Shown here: in pieces, positions 7,833 to 64,000 of the stretch | Position numbering within the stretch: position 1 is the stretch's first letter | Layout: every line of letters starts with the position of its first letter | Origin: Halobacteriales archaeon QS_4_69_34 | Lineage (GTDB): Archaea; Halobacteriota; Halobacteria; Halobacteriales; Halococcaceae | Reading direction: 5' to 3' | Length of the DNA stretch: 64,000 nt | Assembly: GCA_003021045.1 (NCBI GenBank) | Contig: PXRN01000003.1 | Location: forward strand, 126,001 to 190,000 | Program-made: the position numbers and the translations under genes | Notes under the pieces: generated by a model | Told to the model about the DNA's origin: nothing | Seen by the model: the letters and a program-made list of their open reading frames with translations, nothing else | Databases searched by the model: none

Positions 7833-8422
7833 AGCGCGTTCCCTCCCTCGAGCTCCGCGGGCAGTGGCCGGTGGCGGGCCGGCGTGCCGATCGCCAGCGT
7901 CTCCGTGGGGACGTCGTCGGTGACGACCGCGCCGGCGGCGACGAACGCGCCCTCGCCGACGGCGATACCGGGAAGGAGCGTCGCGTTCGCACCAATCGAG
8001 GCGTCGTCTTCGAGCGTCGGTCCCGCGAGGTCGCTCTCGCGCCGAACGGGGTGGGGGTCGTTCGTGCACGTCGCCCGCGGGCCGACGAACACGCGATCGC
8101 CGACGGTGGAGTTCGCGGGCAGGTACGTGCCGGTCTGGAGGCTCACGTGCGAGCCGACGGTACAGGAGCCGTCGAGCACGACCTGAGTGCCAAGGAGGAC
8201 GTCGTCGCCGAGGACGCACTCCTCGCGCACGAGCGCGCCGTGGCCGGTGGCGAAGCCGTCGCCGATCTCGACGCCGGCGTAGACGATCGTGCCCGAGCGG
8301 ATCCGGGCGTCGTCGCCCAGCGTCGTCGGCTCCGCGTCGGGATCGGGGGCGTAGCCGACCGTGGCGTCCGCGTCGATCCGGCAGTTCGCGCCCGTGCGCG
8401 CGCCGGCCGTCGCGGCGCTCAT
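7829..8422 (-). CDS. Left-handed beta-helix N-acetyltransferase (WbpD-like)
   Basis: This 197-residue protein consists almost entirely of hexapeptide-repeat turns (for example ATVGYAPDPDAEP, IRSGTIVYAGVEIG, VFVGPRATCTNDPHPV, ATLLPGIAVGEGAFVAAG), typical of trimeric LbH acyltransferases that use acetyl-CoA. The family includes WbpD, which acetylates the 3-amino group of UDP-GlcNAc(3NH2)A. It is the first gene of the sugar-nucleotide operon. ATG at 8422 is chosen because conserved repeats begin about 15 residues later, while a longer start at 8641 would add some 70 Arg-rich residues unlike any haloarchaeal protein. The family is clear; the acceptor is inferred from its neighbours. Confidence 0.88.
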   Translation of the reverse strand: MSAATAGARTGANCRIDADATVGYAPDPDAEPTTLGDDARIRSGTIVYAGVEIGDGFATGHGALVREECVLGDDVLLGTQVVLDGSCTVGSHVSLQTGTYLPANSTVGDRVFVGPRATCTNDPHPVRRESDLAGPTLEDDASIGANATLLPGIAVGEGAFVAAGAVVTDDVPTETLAIGTPARHRPLPAELEGGNAL

Positions 8423-8745
8423 CCGGCGGGAACACCTCCTGGCGGGCGCGTGCTTCGCCAAGGGACCGAGCGGGAGGCGGTCGACCGTCGGGATACGGCG
8501 GCCGTATCGGACGCGGTATGTCGGTGCCGTCCTGTCATCTGTGTGGAGGGGGTGAGGGCGGATCGGGTGGACGATAGACCGGATCGTGTACCGTCGGTGG
8601 TGTCGTGGGTTTCGACTCTGGCTGATAGACCGCACTCTCACATATAGGAGTTTCCCATCAGGTACGCCGAGTGAGACGTTCGCGGACGGTCGGCGACCGC
8701 GCCGCCGGCGGCGTTACAGTCCGGCGGGAGCCGGGTCACACGGCG
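8423..8745. other. Intergenic region, leader of the sugar-nucleotide operon
   Basis: These 323 bp separate the flippase stop from the acetyltransferase start, both read on the minus strand. I see no credible gene. A TATA-like CTATATGTG lies on the minus strand at about 8638-8646; if it is the promoter, the mRNA would have a leader of some 190 nt. The continuous minus-strand frame through this region is arginine-rich and not convincing as protein. Confidence 0.4.
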
Positions 8746-17075: not shown

Positions 17076-18545
17076 TCAGTCGCTCCGGTCCATCGCGTCC
17101 GCCCGCGGGAACCACGCGAGGTCGTGGCCGGCGATCAGCTCGACGGCGACGGGATCGTCGAGATCGACCCGCGCGGCGTGGTTGTGCATACACTCGACAG
17201 TGCGGGCGTCGGCAGCCGGGGAGCGTCCCGCCGCTCCGCCGCGCTCGCCGGAGAAACGAGCGCTCTCCCCGCCCGCCGGAGGGTCGCCAGCGGCGTCGCC
17301 CGGTAGATCGGAGCGGCTCGGGTCGCCCCGGTGGTCCGGGTCGTCCGCTCGGGCCGAGCCCTCCGACCGGTTCGGATCGCCCGCGCGGTCCGCGCCGCCG
17401 GGCTCGTCGAGCGCCACCCGGTACAGCACCGTGGGCCCGAGATACCGGCGGTAGGCGACGCGGCCGTCGGCCTCCGCGGGCGGAACCCGGGTGAGCGACA
17501 CGTCGTCGGGCCGGACGAGCACGTCGATATCGCTGCCGTCGTACTCCCGGCTGAGCCCGTGGAGTTGCTCGCGCGGGAGCGTCCCGAGCGGGGTCGTGAC
17601 CTTCTCGCCAGCCACCCGGCCGGGGAGGAAGCTCGCGTGGCCGAGAAAGCCAGCGACGAAGCGCGATTCGGGGCGCTGGAAGACGCGCTCGGGTGGGCCG
17701 ACCTGCTCGATCCGTCCCGTCGACATCACCGCCACGCGGTCGGAGATCGAGAACGCCTCCTCCTGGTCGTGGGTCACCGACACCGCGGTGACGCCCGCTT
17801 TGCGGATGATCTCCCGGACCTCCTCGCGCATGGCGACCCGGAGGTCGACGTCGAGATTGGAGAACGGCTCGTCGAGCAGGAGTAGCTCCGGCTGGGGCGC
17901 GAGCGAGCGCGCGAGGGCGACGCGCTGGCGCTGTCCCCCCGAGAGCTCGTCGGGCGGGCTGTCGCGCTGGGCGTCCAGCCCCACGAGATCGAGCAGCTCG
18001 TCGACCCGGGCTTCGCGTGCCTCGCGCTCCCAGTCGTCGAGCCCGAAGGCGACGTTCTCGGCGGCCGTGCGGTGGGGAAACAGCGCGAACTCCTGGAAGA
18101 CGAGGCCGACGTCGCGCTCTTCGGGCGCGAGGAAGTTCCCGTCGCCGGCCACCTCCTCCCCGTCCAGTATCACTCGGCCCGCGTCGGGCCGATCGAGCCC
18201 GGCGATCAGCCGCAGCGTGGTGGTCTTGCCACAGCCGCTCGGGCCCAGCAGGGTGAGGATCTCGCCCTCGCGCACGTCGAGATCGATCCCGTCGAGCACG
18301 GTCTCGGGGCCGTAGCGCTTCGTGATCCCGTCGAGTTCGAGAAGCGGCGGCGCACGCGGCGCCGTCTCCCCGGCTGCCCCGCCGGCCCGCGCGGCCGCCG
18401 GTCGCGCCGGTGGCCCGTCGTGTGGCTGCTCGCGTGCCCGATCCGCCCCGGGGGCGCTCGTCCGTCGTCCGCGGGTGCTCGTTCGTTCCATCGGTCGCGT
18501 ACCGCCCCTCTCGGGCCGACGGGTTGTGAACTCGTCGCTGCTCAC
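17076..18545 (-). CDS. Iron(III)-type ABC transporter ATP-binding protein
   Basis: This ABC ATPase of the FbpC/PotA type has Walker A GPSGCGKTTT, Q-loop VFQEFALFPH, signature LSGGQRQRVALARS, Walker B LLLLDEPFSNLD, H-loop VTHDQEEAF, and a C-terminal TOBE-like domain (DIDVLVRPDDVSL). The TOBE domain is split by an Asp/Gly/Arg/Ser-rich insertion of about 70 residues, and the N-terminus has a long disordered leader. I use GTG at 18545, which overlaps the permease stop (GTGA) and has GGAGGGG just upstream; ATG at 18491 is the alternative. With the permease and binding protein upstream it forms a complete importer that energises ferric iron uptake. Confidence 0.9.
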   Translation of the reverse strand: MSSDEFTTRRPERGGTRPMERTSTRGRRTSAPGADRAREQPHDGPPARPAAARAGGAAGETAPRAPPLLELDGITKRYGPETVLDGIDLDVREGEILTLLGPSGCGKTTTLRLIAGLDRPDAGRVILDGEEVAGDGNFLAPEERDVGLVFQEFALFPHRTAAENVAFGLDDWEREAREARVDELLDLVGLDAQRDSPPDELSGGQRQRVALARSLAPQPELLLLDEPFSNLDVDLRVAMREEVREIIRKAGVTAVSVTHDQEEAFSISDRVAVMSTGRIEQVGPPERVFQRPESRFVAGFLGHASFLPGRVAGEKVTTPLGTLPREQLHGLSREYDGSDIDVLVRPDDVSLTRVPPAEADGRVAYRRYLGPTVLYRVALDEPGGADRAGDPNRSEGSARADDPDHRGDPSRSDLPGDAAGDPPAGGESARFSGERGGAAGRSPAADARTVECMHNHAARVDLDDPVAVELIAGHDLAWFPRADAMDRSD

Positions 18546-57823: not shown

Positions 57824-57898
57824 TGGGCGCTGCAGGATTTGAACCCGCGGCAGCTTGGTCCGAAGCCAAGCACTCTGTCCAAACTGAGCTAAGCGCCC
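57824..57898 (-). tRNA. tRNA-Arg (anticodon UCG)
   Basis: The 75-nt cloverleaf on the minus strand is complete. The acceptor stem GGGCGCT pairs with AGCGCCC plus discriminator A. The D stem is GCTC/GAGT. The anticodon stem CTTGG/CCAAG carries the loop CTTCGGA with anticodon UCG, reading CGA (Arg). There is a short 5-nt variable loop, and the T arm is GCGGG-TTCAAAT-CCTGC. There is no intron and no encoded CCA, normal for haloarchaea. It stands at the boundary between the glycan island and the putative integrated element. Confidence 0.95.
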
Positions 57899-57921
57899 CG
57901 CGTCCGGGCTTACAGGTGAGC

Positions 57922-57937
57922 GCGAGTTAAACCTCGC
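57922..57937. promoter_or_regulatory. tRNA promoter region with small palindrome
   Basis: GCGAG-TTAAAC-CTCGC forms a perfect 5-bp inverted repeat. Its centre reads GTTTAA on the minus strand, 29-34 bp upstream of the tRNA 5' end, the position of an archaeal TATA box. Confidence 0.45.
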
Positions 57938-58191
57938 GGTCGCCGTCCGCCGACCGCCCAGCCTGCCGTATGCGGGTTACAGAGGTGAATCTCGCGCTCG
58001 ATGTAGATCCCTCGGCGGTTCATCGGTCCTCCCTACCGGACTAAGCGTATGTGCCGACATAAAACCCCACGTCCGAAGACCATATCTTACCACGACTCGA
58101 CTAACGGATTCTCGCCATGAGATACCATTCTCCCCCAATAGGTGGTCGTACTGCCCGGACAACGGTAGGTCCCGCCGTACTAACCGCGTTA

Positions 58192-59081: not shown

Positions 59082-59936
59082 TCATCGTAGTCGGTGTAAA
59101 ATATGTTCTACTTTACGCTGCCAACTGTCTGTATTTTCTGCCATATAGCTCCTTATCTCTGATCGAAAGTAGAATGCAACAATAATAGGGGTTGGAATTA
59201 ACAGCAGGATTCTGTATACTATGGGAAAGTAGCCGTACACGTCCTGATATGCAGTGAAAGGCTCTGTCGTTAGAAGCAATACAATTATCGGAACGAATGT
59301 TTTTTCTATGGTAGTACCGCGGAAAAATCTGCTTTCTCTAAACGCTTTATATACCTCGATCACCAAGTAAAATACAAGTGCGAACGAAACTGGCGCAAGT
59401 ATACCTGCCGTTACTTGCACGGCATATGATACGAATATCAATGTGGCACCATGTTTGCCTAATTGGAAGGTGTCTTTCCGTAATTCATCAAGTTCATACA
59501 GAATTTCGTCGTTATATTTAATCCAATCCACGAGCTGAGTTGATCCTCTGTCTATGAGACTGCTTGAATTGCCGATAGGATCACATTTTGGGGATCTTTC
59601 CGCGGAGATGACGGTCGCTAAACTTGCGATGATCCATCCTACGCCGATTCCAAGAAATATTGATGCATAAGTTGAAAGAATATCAGAACTGACTAAACCC
59701 CAATTGTCAGACAGAATGTTTGTTTGCCATAGCAGACCCTTTTCAGTAATAGTAGAATTATTTTCGGCGAAAGTTGCATTTGTTGCTCGGAAAACCGCAA
59801 ATCCACTCAAAGCAATTACAGTTACGACTGCTACAAAGTAACTTCTGAGTATATTCAGGATATTTTCATAGTCTGCCTTTTGCTGTTCAATAGCCCATTG
59901 AAGTGATTCTATCTCTTGGTCGTTCACACGCTTCAC
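59082..59936 (-). CDS. AT-rich multi-spanning membrane protein, unknown
   Basis: This 284-residue protein starts with a charged helix (MKRVNDQEIESLQWAIEQQK) and has about five hydrophobic segments: near residues 31-48 (SYFVAVVTVIALSGFAVF), 92-112, 160-188, 215-225 and 240-258. I do not recognise it. The gene is strikingly AT-rich (roughly 40% GC by eye against 60-70% around it), and the protein has many Lys, Asn, Ile and Tyr residues, unlike the acidic proteins nearby. This is a sign of recent transfer. Membrane proteins with a short N-terminal coiled coil sometimes act in defence or superinfection exclusion, but nothing specific supports that here. Confidence 0.65.
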   Translation of the reverse strand: MKRVNDQEIESLQWAIEQQKADYENILNILRSYFVAVVTVIALSGFAVFRATNATFAENNSTITEKGLLWQTNILSDNWGLVSSDILSTYASIFLGIGVGWIIASLATVISAERSPKCDPIGNSSSLIDRGSTQLVDWIKYNDEILYELDELRKDTFQLGKHGATLIFVSYAVQVTAGILAPVSFALVFYLVIEVYKAFRESRFFRGTTIEKTFVPIIVLLLTTEPFTAYQDVYGYFPIVYRILLLIPTPIIVAFYFRSEIRSYMAENTDSWQRKVEHILHRLR

Positions 59937-60228: not shown

Positions 60229-60537
60229 ATGAAAGTGCAACAACGTACAGTGGATGTTACGGAGCATCGTCGCCCCGAACAGGGTGAGATTCCGGCCCCG
60301 AAGGTGGGCGGGCAACGTTTGACCGAAGCCGAGACCCGGAATCTCCCGGAACAGGAATACCGTGTCGGAGAAATCGCGTATGTCAGGCTCGAATTGGACG
60401 GGGTGAAGCCCTTTGTAGTCGAATCAGCGCGTCTCGGTCGCTATCCCGATTCCGGTGAATTAGGGGTGAGGTACACCCTGAAACGGAGTGGGTTGAAGGA
60501 GCCGATGCACGTGTGGCAGAAGCACCTGCTCGACTGA
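60229..60537 (+). CDS. Small hypothetical protein of the integrated element
   Basis: This 102-residue protein starts MKVQQRTVDVTEHRRPEQGE and has EYRVGEIAYVRLELDGVKPF and VRYTLKRSGLKEPMHVWQKH. It looks like a compact beta-rich protein. The family is unknown to me. It is the only plus-strand gene in this part and diverges from the AT-rich gene. The origin-like repeats begin about 80 bp beyond its stop. A replication or copy-control role would be speculation. Confidence 0.5.
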   Translation: MKVQQRTVDVTEHRRPEQGEIPAPKVGGQRLTEAETRNLPEQEYRVGEIAYVRLELDGVKPFVVESARLGRYPDSGELGVRYTLKRSGLKEPMHVWQKHLLD

Positions 60538-60615
60538 TTTTCTCTCGGACTTTTCCGGTGTTCGATCCGACGGGATAGCCGGTGCTGTCCGATTCGACTG
60601 CCCGTCAGTTCCGCT

Positions 60616-60629
60616 GAACACAGGTGGTG
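60616..60629. repeat. Left arm of 14-bp perfect inverted repeat
   Basis: GAACACAGGTGGTG; the exact reverse complement is at 61067-61080, about 440 bp away. Similarity continues imperfectly inwards for roughly 100 bp on both sides. Confidence 0.75.
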
Positions 60630-60729
60630 TGGTGGTGGAAGGACGGAGGCCGAGGGATTAGACGACGGAGGGACGGGAGTACGACGGACAGGGGACGGAG
60701 GATGGAAAGGAAAAGCTGCGCGGGGTCGG

Positions 60730-60750
60730 CCGGAATAGCTGCTGTTCCGG
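60730..60750. repeat. Hairpin 1: CCGGAA/TTCCGG with loop TAGCTGCTG
   Basis: A perfect 6-bp stem around the 9-nt loop TAGCTGCTG. ATAGCTGCTGT occurs again at 60755-60765 (no stem) and 60799-60809 (with stem). Confidence 0.7.
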
Positions 60751-60793
60751 TAGAATAGCTGCTGTGGTCGTTCAGGCCGAACTACACCTGTCG

Positions 60794-60814
60794 GCCGGAT
60801 AGCTGCTGTTCGGC
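60794..60814. repeat. Hairpin 2: GCCGGA/TTCGGC with the same loop
   Basis: A 6-bp stem with one G-T pair around the identical loop TAGCTGCTG. The stem sequence differs from hairpin 1 while pairing is kept, so the structure is conserved more than the sequence. Confidence 0.65.
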
Positions 60815-60825
60815 AGCACGTGCTG
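60814..60825. repeat. Perfect 12-bp palindrome
   Basis: CAGCACGTGCTG, self-complementary throughout, starting at the last base of hairpin 2. Candidate protein-binding site. Confidence 0.6.
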
Positions 60826-60876
60826 TAGAACAGTATACTATATTGAGGTCGACCACTTCCCCGTTCCGTACGTGCC

Positions 60877-60937
60877 TACTTAAACCGCGACAAAACGCCC
60901 TTAGTAATAGAAAGGGCGATATGACGTGGTTTAAGTA
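60877..60937. repeat. Nested inverted repeat (cruciform-like)
   Basis: The outer arms TACTTAAACC and GGTTTAAGTA pair over 10 bp. The inner arms CGCCCTT and AAGGGCG pair over 7 bp around AGTAATAGA. CCCC-GTA-GGGG follows at once (60939-60949). Confidence 0.7.
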
Positions 60938-61066
60938 CCCCCGTAGGGGACGGGGCATGATCCTACAGCACGTAGCACAGCATCCTCCCTCTTTGCCTCG
61001 GCAGTCTTTTCCATCCGTCCTCGGTGTCCCCCGTCGAGCCATCACCGGCGTCCTCCCCACCACACC

Positions 61067-61080
61067 CACCACCTGTGTTC
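61067..61080. repeat. Right arm of 14-bp perfect inverted repeat
   Basis: CACCACCTGTGTTC, the exact reverse complement of 60616-60629. It lies 40 bp beyond the 3' end of the helicase gene. Confidence 0.75.
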
Positions 61081-61119
61081 CGCGGGACTAACGAGCAGTC
61101 GACTTCGACCGGTCAGCGT

Positions 61120-62934
61120 TCAATCGGACGGGTCCACGACCTTCCACCGTGCCCCCTGTCCGCCAGAACTGTCCCGTTCGACCTCACCGTGCTCGTCAAG
61201 TTCGTTCAGTGCGCGCTCGATCTTTCGCTTCGGCTCATGCGGAATCCGATCCGATATTTCATCCGTTTTCCACCAAGGACTGTCCCGATGTTGGCTCCCG
61301 ACGATGCTCTTGATCTCGGACTGTAGCCGGGGCACGTATTCGACTGTAATCGGCTCCACCGTCGGAACCCACTCCGGCAGCTTCGAGGTCCGAACGAAAA
61401 TGTCGGTACGCTCTCCGTCCCGACCGAACCGCATTACCGCCTGATACACCGCGTCCTCGGTCATGTGACGATATACGTCGTTCCCGAAGCTGTCGGATTC
61501 GTCCCCGACGACCCGATAATCCAGTTCATTCCCCCGGTTTTCGCTCACCTGCTCGATCCTCTTTCCCCGGAGCGCCCCCAGCATCTTGATGTAGCTATCC
61601 CCGAAGTGGGGACTGCCGATAACGACGCCAACACGTTCGTTCCGGAACGAATTGGACCCGCGCATGTTCCCGTACCACTCAGTGTCTTTACAGACGCCGA
61701 GCACGTCGTACTCGGACGGTCTGTATACTCCCTCAATGGCCTTCTTGCCGGTGATGAGGACCGGATTCATGCCCTCGATTTCGCGGACCTTCTCCAGAAT
61801 GTCGGCGTCCATTTTCGGATCGATTATCTCCCGGTTTCCGCCGGACACCGAATACCGTGGATTCTCCGGACTCTTGACGGGTACGATCCTACGGGGGTTC
61901 ACCTCCGTAGCGAACTGCTGCTTTTCGTCCACGGTCAGAACCTCCCGAGTCCGAAGGGACGGGTACACGTGCATCCGCCACAGCTGCTGGCATGGCGTTG
62001 CATCCAGCGCGAGTACGTTGTTCGCGTCCTCAAGGTCCGGCGGAAGGAGTAGATGTACGGTCCCATCGTCCGGTTCGTATGCTCCGGCCCTTCGATCGTC
62101 CGGAAACTCGACGTGTTCGTACCCGTTGCCCAAGTCCCGGCCGAAAAGCAGTGCGTAAGTTATCAGCGGAGCGAGGGCATGCCCTTGTCCGTTAGTATCC
62201 AGCACATGTTGACCGTCCCGCTCCGGCGGATGTTGGTCGAAGTGCAACCGGGCCTTTACCTTCGGTTCAACCGCGTCGGGGTCGTTCCGGGCGTCCATAA
62301 TCTCCCCGTACCCGTCGAAGGGTAGTTCCGGGGTTTCCCGGCAGTAGGTCGTTACGTACCCCGCTACGTCGTCCGCATCGAACCGCGTTCGGAACGTGCT
62401 ACCTGTCCCTTCGTCAAAGACTGGCGTCCTGTTTTGGACGTATCGAGCGTTGTGCGCGTAACTGTAGTGCGCTATCAGGATCGGAACGTCCTCGGGTTCG
62501 TCCGGATGTTTCCGGATGCACGGACAGGTCGTATCGTTTTCTTGACAAGATAGGTTCTCTCCGAGTGCTTTGTGAATCTCGAAGTTGGTCGCACCCTGTT
62601 CTCGAAGGGTGACGATCTTCTTTTCCTCGGGTGTGCTCGCGTTCGACGGGTCCTCCGGTGCTGCCGGACAGTCGCCGTATATGTCGGGCAGGGTATAGAT
62701 TTGGTCGCCGAGGCCCCTGTCCCGACAAGCGTCGGCTACTTCGATCTTGTTCTCATTCCTGCCCACGAGGATCGTCACCGACTCACCCGCTGCTACGGCG
62801 CTTGCACCCACTTCCCGAGTCTTTCCCAAACCGGGAGGGGCTTCGACAATACCCGGCGTATTCGACCGCATGAGGTTATGCAGTTCCGCGGTCAACTTCG
62901 CGCGGTATTCGTCTCGACGTGAGTCCTCCGTCAC
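61120..62934 (-). CDS. Superfamily 2-like helicase with cysteine cluster and C-terminal winged helix
   Basis: This 604-residue protein has Walker A EAPPGLGKT (about residues 31-39), Walker B VFDEG (172-176), and LALDATPCQQLW as a motif III-like segment. Between Walker A and B lie four cysteines at about 89, 130, 137 and 139 (GDCP, SCQENDTTCPC), the place where XPD/Rad3-type helicases hold an iron-sulfur cluster. The C-terminus (KTDEISDRIPHEPKRKIERA) is a winged-helix DNA-binding segment. ATG 62934 overlaps the stop of the primase-polymerase gene (ATGA), so the two are co-expressed. It probably unwinds DNA for replication of the integrated element; helicase activity is inferred from motifs. 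Confidence 0.72.
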   Translation of the reverse strand: MTEDSRRDEYRAKLTAELHNLMRSNTPGIVEAPPGLGKTREVGASAVAAGESVTILVGRNENKIEVADACRDRGLGDQIYTLPDIYGDCPAAPEDPSNASTPEEKKIVTLREQGATNFEIHKALGENLSCQENDTTCPCIRKHPDEPEDVPILIAHYSYAHNARYVQNRTPVFDEGTGSTFRTRFDADDVAGYVTTYCRETPELPFDGYGEIMDARNDPDAVEPKVKARLHFDQHPPERDGQHVLDTNGQGHALAPLITYALLFGRDLGNGYEHVEFPDDRRAGAYEPDDGTVHLLLPPDLEDANNVLALDATPCQQLWRMHVYPSLRTREVLTVDEKQQFATEVNPRRIVPVKSPENPRYSVSGGNREIIDPKMDADILEKVREIEGMNPVLITGKKAIEGVYRPSEYDVLGVCKDTEWYGNMRGSNSFRNERVGVVIGSPHFGDSYIKMLGALRGKRIEQVSENRGNELDYRVVGDESDSFGNDVYRHMTEDAVYQAVMRFGRDGERTDIFVRTSKLPEWVPTVEPITVEYVPRLQSEIKSIVGSQHRDSPWWKTDEISDRIPHEPKRKIERALNELDEHGEVERDSSGGQGARWKVVDPSD

Positions 62935-64000
62935 TCCGACTCACCTCCGTCGTCGCTAACCCAGTCGTGGTCGGGTATATCGAACCGAGTGTCCCGGTCC
63001 TCGGAATCGTCCTTGAAGGTGTCACCGTAACTCGCCCGCCAGTCAGCCTTCCGTACCGCGTTCTCGACTGTACGATCAACATAGTCCGGCCGGTCTATCT
63101 TGTCGTCCGGCCGGAGTGGTCCCCGGTGCGTCCGCAACAGGGTCCTCGTTTGATCGGCGTCGAAGTGGTGGAATCGCAACGAACAAGCGAGTCTGAAATC
63201 GAACCGGGACCAGTCCGGTTTCGGATCGCCGTCCTCGGGTACAATGAACGAGTCGGAGTGGTCGATAACCGACGGGACCTGCTCGGAGAGATAGCTGTCA
63301 AGTCGGCCGTACTCGGCCCGTAGCTCGGACAGGCTGATTCCGAGCGCATTGGTCGGGTCGTTCGGCGCAACAGCCGACAAATCGATCGAAGGGCTGTCCG
63401 GTTCGACAGTAGTGGCCGGAGTAGCAGGTCCCTCGGGTTCCGTCGACTCGCTACGGGTATCCAGAAATTCCGCGCATAGGTCATGCAGCGCGCCGTCGTC
63501 GGGCAGTATGTATTCCGGCGTCCGATCCAATGTGTGACCCGTCACGGTCAGAAATCCGTCCGCGTCGTACACTTCGACCTCGCCGTGCGTGCCTGCCCAC
63601 TCGGGCTTTTCTCCCCGCGTATAGACGTGGATTCCTGTCAACGAGGGGCTAAACTCCCAGTAGCCACCTAACTGCTCAATCCAGTCCCGGGTCCACGGAG
63701 CAATATCCTCCCAGCAGGGACGGTCGTTTCCGTCCCCGGGGTTGTAGTCAACCACGTCGTCGAAGTCGACAACGGTCAGCGGGTCACGGTCCGACAGGAT
63801 AATCCCGATCCCGTCCGGTTGAAGGGAGTCCGTGTATTCCTTCCCGACCTCGGAGAATCGTTTCCCGTTGTCGGGGTCGGTCGCGTCGAACGTATGCCAG
63901 TCCCGCGGGCCCGAGCCGTGGCGTTCTATCGGCAACTTCGCCGGTTTACCGCTGTCGCGTTCGTCGTATCGCCACGTCAGCCAGAAGTCCCGCTTCCACA
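62931..64000 (-). CDS. Primase-polymerase (archaeo-eukaryotic primase type), 5' end beyond window
   Basis: The frame is open to the window edge, and residues such as KRDFWLTWRYDERDSGKPAK before position 63935 look like the normal start region of this family, so the true start lies outside. Visible motifs are LTVVDFDDVVD (the catalytic Asp pair of archaeo-eukaryotic primases), TGIHVYTRGEKPEW (the sxH-like His), EVEVYDADGFLTVTGHTL, and a C-terminal helical part (DRTVENAVRKADWR). This resembles plasmid or viral primase-polymerases such as the NrS-1 type. Coupled to the helicase gene downstream, it forms a replication module for the element. Catalytic assignments are by motif only. Confidence 0.75.
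   Translation of the reverse strand, partial: WKRDFWLTWRYDERDSGKPAKLPIERHGSGPRDWHTFDATDPDNGKRFSEVGKEYTDSLQPDGIGIILSDRDPLTVVDFDDVVDYNPGDGNDRPCWEDIAPWTRDWIEQLGGYWEFSPSLTGIHVYTRGEKPEWAGTHGEVEVYDADGFLTVTGHTLDRTPEYILPDDGALHDLCAEFLDTRSESTEPEGPATPATTVEPDSPSIDLSAVAPNDPTNALGISLSELRAEYGRLDSYLSEQVPSVIDHSDSFIVPEDGDPKPDWSRFDFRLACSLRFHHFDADQTRTLLRTHRGPLRPDDKIDRPDYVDRTVENAVRKADWRASYGDTFKDDSEDRDTRFDIPDHDWVSDDGGESE

Follow-up and report, generated by a model that had tools for sequence, protein, structure and literature searches.

An inverted duplication of ~565 bp in Halobacteriales archaeon QS_4_69_34 probably serves a haloarchaeal integrative plasmid of 10.3 kb as its replication origin, as judged by our computational analysis of the palindrome and its surroundings. 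Positions are given within the window, i.e., the whole 64,000-nt stretch of DNA that was analyzed (contig PXRN01000003.1, 126,001 to 190,000). We favor the origin because (i) the palindrome begins ~10 bp past the stop codon of a helicase gene, like the pRN1 stem-loop behind orf904; (ii) it shares an element with defined borders and an integrase with genes for a primase and a helicase, carries iteron-like repeats, and is a strong and unique repeat; and (iii) some relatives of the helicase gene are followed by strong 3' hairpins or inverted pairs, and the GC skew of the element has its maximum at 60848.

Anatomy of the inverted duplication

A preliminary description of the region had reported a perfect 14-bp inverted pair at 60616-60629 and 61067-61080, which we find at exactly these positions, with arms that remain similar for about 100 bp inwards. 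The similarity is there but is more extensive: it continues to the centre, where the arms meet at ~60907, and beyond the outer bounds given at the time (60611-61085), so that the 14-bp pair is enclosed in a duplication with the following parts:

60560-61125, no strand: whole inverted duplication, putative origin (arm alignment, top inverted repeat of the window, fold z-scores)
60587-60629, plus strand: outer left arm with the 14-bp GAACACAGGTGGTG (ungapped repeat, 14-mer uniqueness)
61067-61109, minus strand: outer right arm, with the stop codon of the helicase gene ~10 bp from its end (ungapped repeat, 14-mer uniqueness)
60859-60955, no strand: inner hairpin, 97 nt (ungapped repeat, self-comparison)
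60877-60886, minus strand: TATA-like motif GGTTTAAGTA, outward-facing (motif count versus shuffles)
60928-60937, plus strand: TATA-like motif GGTTTAAGTA, outward-facing (motif count versus shuffles)
60728-60743, 60748-60763 and 60792-60807 (span 60728-60809), minus strand: three iteron-like repeats with a AGCAGCTAT core, left arm only (direct-repeat and pattern search)
60829-60846, no strand: short A+T-rich stretch, candidate melting site (sequence, inference)

A gapped alignment of the arms outward from ~60907 gives identity at 173/217 aligned positions and a score of 153.6, compared with a mean of 25.9 (sd 9.6, maximum 50.8) for 300 mononucleotide shuffles. In a scan of centres over the whole 64-kb window the duplication is the strongest inverted repeat, both by local score (70 versus a maximum of 35 among 12,476 centres outside 60400-61300) and by global score (136.6 versus a maximum of 100 among 3,119 centres outside the same interval). 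Without gaps, 60587-60629 pairs with 61067-61109 (43 nt, 84%), 60700-60711 with 61005-61016 (the GATGGAAA motif), and 60859-60902 with 60912-60955. The last pair forms the inner hairpin, with 44-nt arms (80%) and a 9-nt loop, which reaches 72.5 bits in the self-comparison and lies 165-261 nt past the helicase stop. The 14-bp pair occurs once in the 2.57-Mb draft genome (~79% complete, 38 contigs) with one mismatch allowed.

Proceeding outward from ~60907, each side presents GGTTTAAGTA, a common CTACAGCACGT, a common pyrimidine-rich stretch and the outer arm. There are only two copies of GGTTTAAGTA in the window, both in the inner hairpin, and the mean count in 100 shuffles is 0.00; TTTAAGTA is what we take to be the haloarchaeal TATA box. 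The left arm is ~130 nt longer than the right, and the extra DNA holds the three iteron-like repeats, which measure 16-18 nt and are spaced by 20 and 44. Two of these match the pattern exactly and one with 2 mismatches; elsewhere in the window there are two 2-mismatch matches, with 0.57 expected.

Fold prediction, suggested in the preliminary description, bears out the structure, in that single strands lie 10-12 sd below dinucleotide shuffles (z = -12.0 for the RNA fold of 60611-61085; z = -10.5 and -10.0 for the DNA fold of the two strands of 60580-61115). The core, said to be less GC-rich, is so only slightly (0.55 at the centre versus 0.60-0.61 in the flanks) and is not AT-rich overall. The maximum of the element's cumulative GC skew coincides with the palindrome, but the purine-rich and pyrimidine-rich arms partly make this peak. 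Among the 37 arm mismatches, 8 are wobble-compatible on the plus strand and 5 on the minus strand, and 24 are transversions. The mismatch classes are close to those expected from unconstrained divergence, so that they give no sign of selection for pairing.

Several other explanations were set aside. Arms identical at only 173/217 positions speak against an inverted repeat made by the assembly, and the single copy in the draft genome against a mobile repeat. The open frames at 60782-61072 (minus) and 60843-61091 (plus) belong to no Pfam family, which speaks against a coding region, and so does, for a known structured RNA, the Rfam search at the gathering threshold, in which a tRNA-Arg is the sole match in the window and the palindrome has none.

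The integrated element and its replication genes

The palindrome and the genes beside it are part of an element bounded by a direct repeat. The features considered below are:

57860-57949, no strand: left attachment site, comprising the 5' part of tRNA-Arg and upstream DNA (repeated at 68073-68163)
60229-60537, plus strand: orphan open reading frame, 102 aa, beside the left arm (no family)
61120-62934, minus strand: helicase, 604 aa, XPD/DinG-like fold, winged-helix-like C-terminal end (structure model and Foldseek)
62931-64166 (the window ends at 64000), minus strand: prim-pol primase, 411 aa (PHROG, PDB and Pfam matches)

The two copies of the direct repeat (90-91 bp, 97.8%) bound 10.3 kb, and the left copy takes in the 5' part of the tRNA-Arg gene at 57824-57898. 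A tyrosine recombinase is encoded at the right end (L055:3807-5084); it matches a PHROG integrase at 6.9e-23 and NCBIfam tyrosine recombinases at up to 1.3e-13, the latter below the curated cutoffs, and has no match in Pfam. The element thus combines an integrase with duplication of an attachment site at a tRNA gene, as is expected of an integrative plasmid.

The site of insertion is the 5' half of tRNA-Arg (57824-57949; L055:5074-5164), and since the repeated DNA extends upstream of the tRNA, the intact gene seems to owe its 5' part and the region before it to the element. Integration at the 3' end of a tRNA is the usual case. Within the element, a 284-aa protein (59082-59936) with membrane-like segments, as seen by eye, lies in a low-GC stretch (0.40-0.45), has no family match and is likely a recent acquisition. 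Elsewhere in the window, the ARAGORN prediction of a tRNA-Asp (anticodon atc) at 17276-17368 is absent from the Rfam results at the gathering threshold and is probably a false call.

On the minus strand, the primase gene is followed by the helicase gene, with an overlap of four bases, and then by the palindrome. The replication module suspected next to the repeats is therefore real, and consists of a prim-pol primase and an XPD/DinG-like helicase in the 10.3-kb integrated element. The primase matches PHROG DNA primase/helicase (9.9e-24, with the in-window part as query), primases in the PDB (~1e-8) and Pfam RepB_primase_C (5.9e-8, above cutoff). An archaeo-eukaryotic prim-pol domain is present, in a separate gene. 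Relatives of the primase are found in 102 plasmid and 128 phage records, none of which covers 80% of the protein.

The helicase has no match among Pfam, NCBIfam, PHROG or PDB sequences, and its assignment is based on a structure model that draws on 18 sequences and has a mean pLDDT of 84.6. The best Foldseek matches are XPD (2.0e-12) and DinG (1.4e-10), and the first nine have TM-scores of 0.42-0.47, which are query-normalized and modest, at 10-13% identity; XPD and DinG are classified in superfamily 2. The last 65 residues form three helices and two strands (at 536-599 in the model), and the protein has no Pfam match there. From this predicted secondary structure the C-terminal end reads as winged-helix-like, and the fused primase-helicase protein of a related element has a MarR-type match. 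On the other side of the palindrome, the 102-aa frame belongs to no protein family and has no match in 59 other genomes searched.

Relatives of the helicase and of the palindrome

Matches to the helicase are found in 120/392 genomes of the order, its own included, in 16 plasmid records and on four viral contigs in IMG/VR; phage records gave no helicase match, and a single-protein query of viral and genome collections gave no close relatives. Two of the plasmid records are complete and circular, one from Halorientalis litorea (8,896 bp) and one from Halomarina sp. BCD28 (10,819 bp). Both also encode an integrase, and the primase-helicase module is therefore a component of small haloarchaeal plasmids that integrate.

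The DNA of the palindrome has no homologue in plasmid and phage records. Within the order, 24/391 other genomes match over 23-53 bases only (E 2e-5 to 0.009), and many of these matches fall on the purine/pyrimidine-rich arms; 19 of the 24 matching loci were fetched, and no related helicase was found within the 2-3 kb covered. Patterns of the arms and inner hairpin gave no match to viral contigs in one search and two in another, in DNA of 33-35% GC. For a pattern found in at least 120 stretches of viral contigs, none of the 120 listed loci has an inverted partner within 1,500 bases.

To compare structures independently of their sequences, we surveyed the regions 3' of the helicase gene. The 121 loci with a helicase match include 67 that are non-redundant (<80% identity) and have enough 3' sequence, i.e., our element and 66 relatives; the other genes in these loci supplied 566 control 3' regions, one of which (L100) is a relative's own hairpin approached from the opposite gene. 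Thresholds of 30, 35 and 40 bits were fixed before the control comparison and after inspection of the relatives' 3' repeats. An inverted repeat of at least 30 bits follows the helicase in 13/66 relatives versus 63/566 controls (p 0.040); the counts are 6/66 versus 26/566 at 35 bits (p 0.105) and 5/66 versus 12/566 at 40 bits (p 0.024). The whole bit-score distribution is not shifted between the 66 relatives and the 566 controls (p 0.27). The inner hairpin of our element, at 72.5 bits, exceeds all 566 controls (maximum 64.4).

Among the relatives, L090, L094, L100 and L109 have strong single hairpins at most 80 nt from the stop, with unrelated sequences. L067/L088 and L092/L099/L101 have inverted pairs of 19-22 nt, 266-295 nt apart from start to start, with a short palindrome in the spacer; those of L099 and L101, at 31 bits, are not unusual for the locus that carries them (p 0.36 and 0.21, respectively). 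Past the stop of the fused primase-helicase genes in the 9-11 kb records L057-L060, nothing rises above background. By folding, our element scores -6.45, and 11 other loci are no lower than -2.7; in a further 18 loci, five fall below -2.8 (L006, L009, L021, L025 and L027), the lowest at -3.54. A scan of mean folding energy among the relatives gave no outlier comparable to our hairpin.

These results give weak support for recurrence of a strong 3' inverted repeat among the relatives, and the repeat is clearly not universal. Loss of the repeat in related elements, which the preliminary description held would count against an origin, is thus seen in part, among elements whose helicases are 24-35% identical to ours; no closer relative, which would allow a fair judgement, was found. 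The origin proposed there gains from the replication module, the iteron-like repeats and the hairpin, and loses from the lack of a sequence relative and the minority of relatives with a strong repeat.

Further repeats were observed in the surveyed loci. Several short palindromes of 31-51 bits lie upstream of the helicase (L099:7647-9055, L073:8459-9165 and L083:3473-4371), and L101 carries, further downstream, a 28-nt sequence and its perfect inverted copy (8277-8304 and 8642-8669), 365 nt apart. Past the related helicase of plasmid phalar02 of halophilic archaeon DL31 (L114:9701-9952) a 48-nt sequence is repeated directly (94%), and inverted pairs are absent.

Comparison with known replicons

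The accessible part of a study of the Sulfolobus plasmid pRN1 describes a 100-nt stem-loop that begins 54 bp past orf904, a gene for a prim-pol/helicase/winged-helix protein, and is needed for replication (PMC4234260). The stem-loop functions when relocated, its structure is conserved and its sequence is not, and the authors note that there is no direct proof of initiation at this site (PMC4234260). As far as that source goes, the order is the same in our element: prim-pol, helicase, a C-terminal end that is here only winged-helix-like, and then a stem-loop (~100 nt in pRN1, the 97-nt inner hairpin here). Like pRN1-type replicons, it thus has a large stem-loop immediately behind the replication gene. 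Unlike in pRN1, the helicase fold is XPD/DinG-like rather than superfamily 3, primase and helicase are encoded by separate genes, the stem-loop is part of a ~565-bp palindrome with iteron-like repeats, and the host is a haloarchaeon.

In RSF1010, a primase that is a protein of its own acts together with iterons and two stem-loops, ssiA and ssiB, according to the same accessible text (PMC4234260). On that account, our element resembles the RSF1010 (IncQ) oriV in having iteron-like repeats beside two putative start regions of opposite orientation, for which use by the primase is predicted, and in having separate primase and helicase proteins, with a Pfam RepB_primase_C match where RSF1010 has the primase RepB'. 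It differs in that no RepC-like initiator was recognized (no such family was found among the element's scanned frames, and orphans remain), in the XPD/DinG-like fold in place of a RepA-type hexameric helicase, and in arms of ~220 aligned bp rather than short hairpins; the likeness is one of layout. The ssi sites of RSF1010 have an inverted layout. Judged by the modeled helicase, the element lies outside both the pRN1 and the RSF1010 replicon types, and would at most work like them.

Related by helicase are the circular plasmids of Halorientalis litorea (NZ_CP095486, L060; 8.9 kb, 32% identity) and Halomarina sp. BCD28 (NZ_CP100453, L059; 10.8 kb, 34%), which carry integrases but differ in having one long primase-helicase gene and no comparable palindrome past its stop. 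The arCOG07809 elements, as far as described in the accessible part of the source, are likewise small, archaeal and integrated, and pair a prim-pol with a helicase outside SF3; theirs is a superfamily I helicase, a family different by name, and that part of the text mentions no stem-loop (PMC4158269).

Proposed mechanism and alternative explanations

Binding, opening and priming in the following scheme are predicted from the observed anatomy and position of the palindrome and from the protein families beside it. The integrase would excise the element first. The iteron-like repeats would be bound by the winged-helix-like C-terminus of the helicase or by some other protein of the plasmid, and the helicase would open the A+T-rich centre. 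The exposed single strands could then fold into stem-loops, one per orientation, beside each of which the prim-pol primase would start a primer, leading to outward synthesis on both strands. The inverted duplication would thus give each strand its own start site, like ssiA and ssiB of RSF1010, with the structure in the role of the pRN1 stem-loop.

The same anatomy could also arise from a small-RNA gene duplicated in inverted orientation, the outward TATA-like motifs driving two homologous C/U-rich RNAs through the arms as regulators (e.g., of copy number) or primers. The symmetric, outward-facing placement of a motif present only twice in 64 kb and the similarity of the arms outward from it would suit such a divergent pair; however, we consider it unlikely, given that the palindrome contains no Rfam family and, when searched for a terminator-like site (T-run), none of these, that the two arms place the shared outer sequence at distances from the motif that are ~130 nt unequal, and that in 392 genomes of the order the divergent-motif pattern occurs in this genome only (0/391 others). 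The iteron-like repeats are also compatible with a partition or incompatibility (centromere-like) site, at which the repeats and the palindrome would be targets of a plasmid protein that acts in segregation or copy control. The origin would in that case lie upstream of the operon, where there is indeed a lower-GC stretch with short repeats, but a Pfam scan of 11 of the element's open reading frames gave no partition-protein family, orphans remaining, and we regard such a site as very improbable.

Given its location between convergent frames ending at 61120 (minus) and 60537 (plus), the palindrome might instead terminate the rep transcript through strong structure at its 3' end and so separate it from the opposite gene. 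Its size (>500 bp), its 72.5 bits versus an average of ~22 bits for the control 3' regions and the lack of a T-run terminator leave this explanation with even less to recommend it. Least credible is a transposable remnant, of fold-back or MITE-like type, that entered the plasmid: the terminal 43-nt inverted arms are of the expected kind, but the palindrome is single-copy in the draft genome, has no relative in the collections searched (plasmids, phages, genomes of the order and viral contigs), and its arm homology reaches the centre.

The stretch upstream of the operon (~L055:1804-2280, apart from short predicted frames) has a GC content of 0.50, contains short repeats and folds 2.2 sd below shuffles, and could be the origin instead of the palindrome. 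Also upstream of the primase operon, at L055:2134-2192, there is an 18-bp tandem repeat (CGTCTACGTCTG core) with an adjoining inverted copy, a candidate operator or alternative origin.

If the palindrome is the origin, as we propose, a bolder version would make it a new archaeal origin type, in which each half carries an outward promoter and a primase start, and a prim-pol and an XPD/DinG-like helicase, rather than one of superfamily 3 or MCM-type, fire two outward forks, with RNA polymerase activating or priming; this we hold to be decidedly doubtful. Our literature search, which covered few subscription journals, turned up no account of an origin of this kind from haloarchaea, and to our knowledge the start of replication in most archaeal plasmids is not understood. 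With a compact operon and a clear structured candidate origin, the question would become testable in haloarchaeal laboratory hosts. If the palindrome is functional, the pRN1 idea of an origin formed by a stem-loop past the primase gene would reach a further helicase superfamily and a further branch of archaea.
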